Shown: positions 5,684 to 60,375 of the stretch, one piece after another
Layout: every line of letters starts with the position of its first letter
How positions within the stretch are numbered: position 1 is the stretch's first letter
Assembly (NCBI GenBank): GCA_963678705.1
Contig: OY783208.1
Coordinates: 21,478,207 to 21,542,206 of the forward strand
DNA from: Panorpa germanica
Lineage: Eukaryota > Arthropoda > Insecta > Mecoptera > Panorpidae
DNA length: 64,000 nucleotides
Reading direction: 5' to 3'
Program-made: the position numbers and the translations under genes
The notes under the pieces: generated by a model
Database searches by the model: none
The model's input: only the letters and a program-made list of their open reading frames with translations
Told to the model about the DNA's origin: nothing

Positions 5684-5759
5684 ATGTTTACTTTAATGAC
5701 GGTTTCTTGTGTTACACTTGGATTTTTGGCAACCCTGTTTATGCTCTATAGTTCTGGTG
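5684..5759 (+). CDS. Exon 1: start codon and signal peptide
   Basis: ATG at 5684 opens 25 codons with a hydrophobic core (V-T-L-G-F-L-A-T-L-F-M-L) and small residues Y-S-S-G at the likely cleavage site. It ends one base into codon 26 at donor GTAAGA (5760), setting phase 1 for the whole gene. Confidence 0.85.

Positions 5760-60375: not shown

Follow-up and report, generated by a model that had tools for sequence, protein, structure and literature searches.

A putative giant gene of tiny, mostly 3-nt exons and similar splice-site arrays in the genome of Panorpa germanica

The stretch of DNA analysed here (the window; 64 kb, C5:21478207-21542206 of a 464-Mb assembly in 249 contigs) very probably holds a giant gene, part of a family, whose coding sequence is divided into tiny, mostly 3-nt exons and whose product, as judged from sequence, would be a small secreted cysteine-rich protein. 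This gene (gene 1) would be the first part of an array of about 100 kb on the plus strand, with a signal-peptide exon followed by tiny exons starting at codon position 2. The arrays of splice sites, their strand and length specificity, a codon frame shared when arrays are summed, and other arrays in the same genome are observed directly. A gene had been proposed earlier from the letters of this region (the sequence-only reading); the ordered triplets and the frame in the summed arrays speak for it, whereas the gene is not isolated, its end is not fixed and its weak triplets are uncertain.

Splice-site counts and the predicted exon chain

The pattern AG-N3-GTRAG(Y) was counted on both strands of the window, with dinucleotide shuffles and order-4 Markov sequences as nulls and with the opposite strand, other spacer lengths and 100 kb of upstream DNA as further controls. 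AG-N3-GTRAG occurs 37 times on the plus strand and 5 times on the minus strand, against 3.5 ± 1.7 per dinucleotide shuffle (n = 100), in agreement with the sequence-only reading, which had expected only a few by chance and had asked for a count on both strands and in shuffled sequence. For AG-N3-GTRAGY the counts are 32 and 1, dinucleotide shuffles (n = 100) giving 1.7 ± 1.2 with a maximum of 5 and order-4 Markov sequences (n = 200) giving 2.5 ± 1.6 with a maximum of 8. Sites at the same density on the opposite strand or in unrelated regions had been named beforehand as evidence against such a gene, and they were not found, the 100 kb upstream holding nine plus-strand sites.

The excess is also specific for length. 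When the spacer of AG-Nn-GTRAGY is varied from 0 to 15, every value except 3 gives 0-7 sites on the plus strand and 0-5 on the minus strand (6 and 4 at n = 6, 7 and 5 at n = 9), being n = 3 the only far outlier. For YAG-Nn-GTRAG, 29 sites are found on the plus strand at n = 3, followed by 6, 6 and 4 at n = 6, 9 and 12 and by 0-4 at the remaining lengths up to 30; the minus strand has 0-7 (the 7 at n = 11), and about 1.6 are expected per length. Moreover, candidate exons of 0-60 nt, selected with hand-set splice weights at a higher threshold, are distributed by length modulo 3 as 44/5/8 on the plus strand and 7/7/12 on the minus strand. With this strand and length specificity, and with shuffles and Markov sequences far below the real counts, chance is rejected as the source of the array.

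Alternatively, the sites could be recursive-splicing stepping-stones for very long introns, the 3 nt being incidental. Recursive splicing is established in flies (PMC8605326), and the array sites resemble the ratchet points of Drosophila, with 3 nt between acceptor and donor. However, the zero-nt exon that defines a ratchet point, AG-GTRAGY, is not enriched (3 on the plus strand, 3 on the minus strand, 2.7 expected), spacers of 1, 2, 4 and 5 nt occur 0, 2, 1 and 0 times on the plus strand, at or below chance, and the ordered triplets bear a codon frame in the summed arrays, which implies that the 3 nt must remain in the mRNA and be translated. As a purely recursive system the array is improbable, although the recursive and coding readings can be combined if splicing proceeds stepwise and retains one codon per step.

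For the preferred reading, a coding array of tiny exons, a chain built by hand contains 46 internal exons with a mean of 4.8 nt, 34 of them of 3 nt, and predicts 120 residues; its introns range from 56 to 8745 nt (median 989). The 34 triplets counted earlier stand, but the 47 internal exons and 122 residues of that count are now 46 and 120, a mismatch that one additional 6-nt exon would fit. Both outer exons were recovered as first described: exon 1 has a hydrophobic N-terminus and a phase-1 donor, and in the last exon the phase of the array stays open up to TAG, with AATAAA close behind. The signal-like start was judged by hydropathy only, and the rule for exon 1 (hydrophobic start plus phase-1 donor) also matches three other places in the window, two on the plus strand and one on the minus strand, being rare, not unique.

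Two decoders were used for comparison. The length-neutral decoder combines hand-set splice weights with a length prior that has no preference for 3 nt; the weights were untrained on the window, yet they were written with the array sites already known and are not blind. The 3-nt-favouring decoder has a prior that favours 3 nt and a bonus for AG-free zones, so its exon numbers are biased toward 3 nt. In the following list of predicted exons, an internal exon without further remark is a candidate by the hand-set weights and belongs to the length-neutral chain, and "3-nt-favouring only" denotes an exon in the chain of that decoder that the length-neutral decoder omits.

5684-5759, plus: exon 1; ATG, hydrophobic signal-peptide-like start, phase-1 donor GTAAGA
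6833-6841, plus: 9-nt exon
15587-15589, plus: 3-nt exon GCA, completes Cys TGC
17080-17082, plus: weaker 3-nt exon; 3-nt-favouring only
17632-17634, plus: 3-nt exon
17784-17786, plus: 3-nt exon
18792-18794, plus: 3-nt exon
18947-18949, plus: 3-nt exon
19643-19645, plus: 3-nt exon GCA, Cys
20648-20650, plus: weak 3-nt exon; AAG acceptor, GTAAGA donor; omitted by both decoders
20739-20741, plus: 3-nt exon
22148-22150, plus: weaker 3-nt exon; AAG acceptor; 3-nt-favouring only
23338-23340, plus: 3-nt exon
24600-24605, plus: 6-nt exon
25709-25711, plus: 3-nt exon
25850-25852, plus: weaker 3-nt exon; AAG acceptor; 3-nt-favouring only
27235-27240, plus: 6-nt exon
27845-27847, plus: 3-nt exon
28755-28763, plus: 9-nt exon
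28883-28885, plus: weaker 3-nt exon; GTAAGA donor; 3-nt-favouring only
29012-29014, plus: 3-nt exon GCA, Cys
29902-29904, plus: weaker 3-nt exon; AAG acceptor; 3-nt-favouring only
31328-31330, plus: 3-nt exon GCA, Cys
32441-32443, plus: 3-nt exon
33294-33296, plus: weaker 3-nt exon; AAG acceptor; 3-nt-favouring only
33394-33396, plus: weaker 3-nt exon; GTAAGA donor; 3-nt-favouring only
34386-34391, plus: 6-nt exon
35213-35215, plus: weaker 3-nt exon; AAG acceptor; 3-nt-favouring only
36217-36225, plus: 9-nt exon
41671-41673, plus: 3-nt exon
42667-42672, plus: 6-nt exon
42979-42981, plus: 3-nt exon
44328-44339, plus: 12-nt exon
44608-44610, plus: 3-nt exon
44826-44828, plus: 3-nt exon
45741-45749, plus: 9-nt exon; an alternative acceptor at 45747 would make it 3 nt
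46990-46992, plus: 3-nt exon
47345-47347, plus: 3-nt exon GCA, Cys
48460-48486, plus: 27-nt exon with one Cys; in the length-neutral chain, omitted by the 3-nt-favouring decoder
49382-49384, plus: weak 3-nt exon; GTAAGA donor; omitted by both decoders
49441-49443, plus: weaker 3-nt exon; AAG acceptor; 3-nt-favouring only
51101-51103, plus: weaker 3-nt exon; 3-nt-favouring only
53573-53575, plus: 3-nt exon; surroundings resemble those of 55905
54318-54320, plus: 3-nt exon
55905-55907, plus: 3-nt exon; surroundings resemble those of 53573
58994-59002, plus: 9-nt exon
60021-60032, plus: 12-nt exon; stop inside if read from codon position 1; in the length-neutral chain
60311-60375, plus: terminal exon, one possible gene end; strong acceptor, array frame open, TAG, then AATAAA
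61999-62007, plus: 9-nt exon past the proposed end; strong site, the array goes on
62411-62413, plus: 3-nt exon past the proposed end; strong, top 3-nt site of that part
63023-63025, plus: possible weak 3-nt exon; from the 3-nt-favouring decoder

On the plus strand of the window, the length-neutral decoder reaches 74.2 bits with 37 exons, 22 of them of 3 nt, against 1.1 bits and 3 exons on the minus strand and a mean of 3.8 bits (maximum 10.4) in 30 shuffles; the 105 kb upstream give 23 bits and 20 exons, of which 3 have 3 nt. A total of 34 of the 37 exons match the hand-built chain, and 12 of the 46 internal exons of the latter are omitted, 10 of these 12 having an AAG acceptor or a GTAAGA donor. 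Nonetheless, the base before AG in the 32 plus-strand AG-N3-GTRAGY sites is A in 6 and G in none, which places this group of weak sites still above chance. The 3-nt-favouring decoder omits only 3 of the 46 and adds 6 others. Since the decoders disagree on the weak exons, the exact string of residues is uncertain, but the array itself is not.

Several features of the sites played no part in choosing them, among them the absence of exons from self-repeats described below: the previous AG lies at a median of 43 nt upstream of the chain acceptors versus 12 nt for AGs generally, and an AG within 8 nt upstream is found at 1 of 47 chain acceptors versus 36% of AGs. Also, the T content between positions -20 and -5 is 50% versus 32%, and the loose branch-point motif YTRAY is present at 25 of the 47 acceptors versus 27%. 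Stricter branch-point motifs show no clear enrichment at the 47 acceptors (CTRAY 5 versus 7%, CTAAY 4 versus 5%, CTAAC 0 versus 1%).

The largest intron, between exons 6833 and 15587, contains a recent LTR insertion with identical 649-nt direct repeats (7536-8184 and 13773-14421) that enclose gypsy-like gag/pol frames, named by eye. Within the gene and just past it, 56903-57277 (minus) and 60816-61318 (plus) are what we take by eye to be mariner-like transposase fragments. The exons at 53573 and 55905 share a 31-nt stretch around the exon with 87% identity, a hint of duplication.

Extent of the array and similar arrays in the genome

The end of the array at 60375 that was first proposed does not hold, because strong sites are present past it, at 61999 and 62411, and the interval from 60.4 to 103 kb contains 34 AG-N3-GTRAGY sites, one of which is 62411. 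In the 264 kb surveyed around the window, the plus-strand counts per 10 kb from the window start are 0, 7, 8, 4, 8, 4, 7, 10, 6, 9, 2, 2 and 1, and then zero, whereas the minus strand never exceeds 2 per 10 kb. The ten plus-strand bins upstream of the window hold no more than 3 sites each; of their 9 sites, 6 belong to copies of a single repeat. According to these counts, the array spans from about 15.6 to 103 kb (window coordinates), with a few sites up to 121 kb. The 3-nt-favouring decoder gives 166 bits and 49 exons for gene 1 (37 of 3 nt) and 218 bits and 58 exons for 60.4-125 kb (50 of 3 nt). In the same 119 kb, its minus-strand chain reaches 18 bits with 13 exons, 9 of which have 3 nt, and the upstream DNA scores 8 bits.

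A first exon for the downstream array was sought between 60.4 and 66 kb and not found, and stretches resembling a terminal exon turn up often by chance throughout the sequence, so the borders of the gene are not fixed. Either a single gene with two ends or two tandem genes would fit the array, 60375 being only one possible gene end. Farther downstream, at about 159.4-161 kb (window coordinates), candidate exons of ordinary size with a sushi/CCP-like cysteine pattern, recognised by eye, probably belong to an ordinary gene. Upstream of exon 1, an array of C2H2 zinc fingers (2648-4452, plus) changes over near 3.9 kb from one reading frame to a second that overlaps it, which perhaps reflects a frameshift or a decaying gene.

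The genome-wide totals of AG-N3-GTRAGY, 6779 and 6409, are near those of the reversed pattern, 6450 and 6275, which indicates that most single sites are due to chance and only clusters are meaningful. Three further clusters were chosen by eye among the genome matches listed. At C5:960001-990000 (locus 2), 23 sites are on the plus strand and 1 on the minus strand, and the 3-nt-favouring decoder gives 121 bits and 41 exons, 38 of 3 nt, whereas the opposite strand reaches 21 bits with 7 exons, 4 of 3 nt. At C5:14.41-14.45 Mb (locus 3), 30 kb of the locus hold 11 sites on the minus strand and 2 on the plus strand, with decoder scores of 70 versus 7 bits. The single isolated gene first envisaged is thus not what the genome contains, since the array continues downstream of the window and arrays are present at these two loci. 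Moreover, 61 forward YAGNNNGTRAGY places, of 84 forward in the first 2.94 Mb among the matches listed, fall within 128 kb at C1:1213313-1341430, and this clustering of forward places suggests that C1:1.21-1.34 Mb is probably a further, larger array of this kind. The AG-free zone recurs in the four arrays (gene 1, the downstream array 2 and loci 2 and 3): an AG within 8 nt is found at 2 of their 99 AG-N3-GTRAGY sites versus about 35% (1/31, 1/34, 0/23 and 0/11 per array). The similarity of exon order between arrays is weak (P.014,.07 and.65); in this comparison stop-free chains were used for gene 1 and array 2, the latter without its three final exons, which lie beyond 103 kb.

The third cluster, at C2:5.94 Mb, was rejected as an array, since it consists of a repeated unit and the decoder gives 4.9 bits. 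This unit (C2:5940785-5954355, minus) is array-like by pattern, with 5 of 6 sites reading AG-CCN or CTG-GTAAGTAAAC with the same flank. Likewise, six places between window coordinates -92601 and -43579 are repeat copies with AG-TTG-GTAAGTTAAT, which give spurious matches to AG-N3-GTAAGT. The pattern in the window could be thought to come from a dispersed repeat or mobile element bearing AG-N3-GTRAG: 27% of the window is self-repetitive, and the two clusters just described proved to be such repeats. However, none of the 48 chain exons lies inside self-repeats, the pairwise alignment of 150-nt exon flanks yields neighbour overlaps and a few matches of 20-42 nt, and the triplets differ between sites; a repeat origin of the array is hardly credible.

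Codon frame and predicted product

In the hand-built chain, reading the exons from codon position 2 gives 0 stops versus 2.5 when the exon order is shuffled (P.035) and 6 cysteines versus 2.8 (P.008), and the position-3 frame gives 5 stops versus 5.0. For the position-1 frame this test is powerless, as shuffling leaves the codons inside whole 3n exons intact. Since the hand-built chain was made with the frame in mind, the frame was retested on frame-blind chains, with the exon order shuffled 10,000 times.

For the chains of the 3-nt-favouring decoder read from position 2, gene 1 has 1 stop versus 2.7 (P.17) and 6 Cys versus 2.2 (P.004); the downstream array 2 has 2 stops versus 5.2 (P.04) and 7 Cys versus 3.3 (P.009); locus 2 (C5:0.96-0.99 Mb) has 1 stop versus 3.2 (P.10) and 7 Cys versus 1.9 (P 0.0000); and locus 3 (C5:14.41-14.45 Mb) has 1 stop versus 1.7 (P.41) and 2 Cys versus 0.9 (P.19). 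When the four arrays are summed, 5 stops versus 12.8 (P.0026), 22 Cys versus 8.3 (P 0.0000) and 7 CxC versus 0.34 (P 0.0000) are obtained, and position 3 shows no effect (18 stops versus 18.0, 7 Cys versus 9.6). The sparser length-neutral chains, summed in the same way, give 5 stops versus 10.3 (P.008) and 13 Cys versus 8.1 (P.005) at position 2, again with no position-3 effect and with single arrays mostly not significant. In these sparser chains the CxC excess is gone (1 versus 0.21, P.19, four arrays summed), and the CxC motif therefore hinges on the less certain exons. For gene 1, the test varies with the decoder (stops P.17 or.04, Cys P.004 or.10), and the array at C5:14.41 Mb is significant with neither. 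A shared codon frame at position 2 is therefore supported when the four arrays are summed, not by each array alone. The single stop-free phase of the sequence-only reading persists in the hand chain, which has no stop, whereas the frame-blind chain of gene 1 from the 3-nt-favouring decoder keeps one stop.

The array could instead be a dead or decaying gene, a relic now silent. Weak sites are present in it, and its second intron has received the recent LTR insertion with identical 649-nt ends. Nonetheless, in the hand chain, built with the frame in mind, stops occur at 0 of 47 successive joins versus 66 of 1128 for any exon pair, strong splice sites are found throughout the array, and other arrays of the same kind exist in the genome. 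A relic is thus very improbable. Skipping one exon creates a stop in 3 of 46 cases, near the chance rate of 66 of 1128, which gives no sign of selection for skipping.

As a living gene, gene 1 would encode some 120 residues, beginning with a hydrophobic stretch and including six cysteines; the latter, reported previously, are all found in the hand chain downstream of the signal-like start. They are predicted at 29, 35, 51, 53, 77 and 79, with no clear CYC pair and with the exact residues uncertain. In the same chain, all five GCA triplets come after an exon whose last base is T, which yields the Cys codon TGC, and 5 junction codons are Cys versus 1.8 expected. The CxC motifs of this model would be at 51-53 and 77-79, the second of which needs the 27-nt exon omitted by the 3-nt-favouring decoder. 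No homologue of the predicted product was found in Pfam or in the protein collection, and the PDB returned one line with E 0.14. Against its own genome, it matched only its two end exons and three places at E 0.035-1.7; the three weak loci, of about 3 kb each, contain 0 AG-N3-GTRAGY sites.

Known systems and a proposed splicing route

The closest likeness is to the bicycle genes of aphids, phylloxerids and scale insects, which have about 17 exons on average (PMC9168663) and whose proteins are characterised by two C-Y-C motifs and a saposin-like fold (PMC13041983). Salivary expression is a further mark of these genes. As in bicycle genes, nearly all of whose internal exons start at codon position 2 (PMC9168663), many tiny internal exons would start at that position here, after a first exon with a hydrophobic start, the predicted product is short and sequence homologues are hard to detect; unlike them, there are here about 46 internal exons with a mean of 4.8 nt, most of 3 nt. 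The published classifier of bicycle gene structure (cut-off 0.72), with its printed coefficients (PMC9168663), gives p of about 1 for the window gene, a value that is an extrapolation because exon number alone saturates the score; p is 0.77 with only 5 exons counted and 0 with exons of phase 1 instead. The analogy to bicycle genes and to the schistosome MEGs made at the outset was thus apt, and the window gene appears laid out in a way resembling a bicycle or MEG gene, a likeness of gene structure. The megacycle gene of aphids is also a single giant gene, with more than 100 microexons over about 100 kb, but its product has about 2000 residues and its exons (118 for 2092 residues in one species) measure by our own arithmetic about 50 nt, some ten times longer (PMC9168663).

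The MEGs of schistosomes encode secreted proteins, and about 80% of their coding sequence lies in short symmetric exons of 6-36 bp (PMC5825161). The predicted secretion and the short symmetric exons are shared with the window gene. However, its internal exons account for 222 of 363 coding nt and 34 of the 46 have 3 nt, below the MEG range, and by its mobile elements the host would be an insect. Drosophila ratchet points have acceptor and donor nearly adjacent and probably used stepwise, as would be the case here, but with a zero-nt spacing and usually nothing retained in the mRNA, whereas one codon is seemingly retained per step in the array (PMC8605326). Plant APC11 and VPS55 have a 1-nt microexon, and that of VPS55 carries a conserved GTRAGT donor (PMC8831610), which offers a parallel to the strong donors of the triplets; in these plant genes, though, there is one such exon per gene and no array, and 1 nt alone does not keep the frame (PMC8831610). 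Among the matches listed from the open PubMed Central set (titles, beginnings of abstracts and passages; few preprints and no subscription papers), single 3-nt exons and 1-nt plant exons are described, and no gene with arrays of 3-nt exons appears.

Recognition across the intron is believed to be required for microexons, which are too short for the splicing complexes to assemble on them without colliding (PMC8378409). Both splice-site complexes could hardly be seated at once on 3 nt, and we infer that each intron of the window gene would be recognised as a unit (intron definition), with removal probably proceeding from 5' to 3'. The upstream exon would be joined to the triplet first and the adjoining donor would then be used, so that the strong GTRAGY donor beside the newly added codon would drive the next step, in a ratchet of about one codon per step. 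The AG-free zones and the strong donors fit such stepwise joining at triplets. Moreover, triplets would arise or survive only where the frame is kept, which would account for the uniform phase and the 3n lengths. The product would be a small, secreted protein rich in cysteines, CxC motifs being a possible feature, and the family might act, like the secreted bicycle and MEG proteins, at an interface with another organism, this being the weakest step of the proposal. One codon per exon is the best explanation of the array; a bolder addition, that stepwise intron-defined splicing also makes codons optional and yields very many protein variants per locus, is doubtful, and the near-chance rate of stops on exon skipping speaks against it.

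A gene that needs dozens of such exons in a row would extend the one-codon exon size to a whole gene, by a stepwise, intron-defined route. Since 3-letter exons are hard for read aligners and for homology searches, standard annotation would probably miss genes of this kind. The density of AG-3n-GTRAGY on one strand would then be a route to hidden genes for secreted proteins in other genomes, and the genes themselves would be a test bed for the gain of introns or exons codon by codon.
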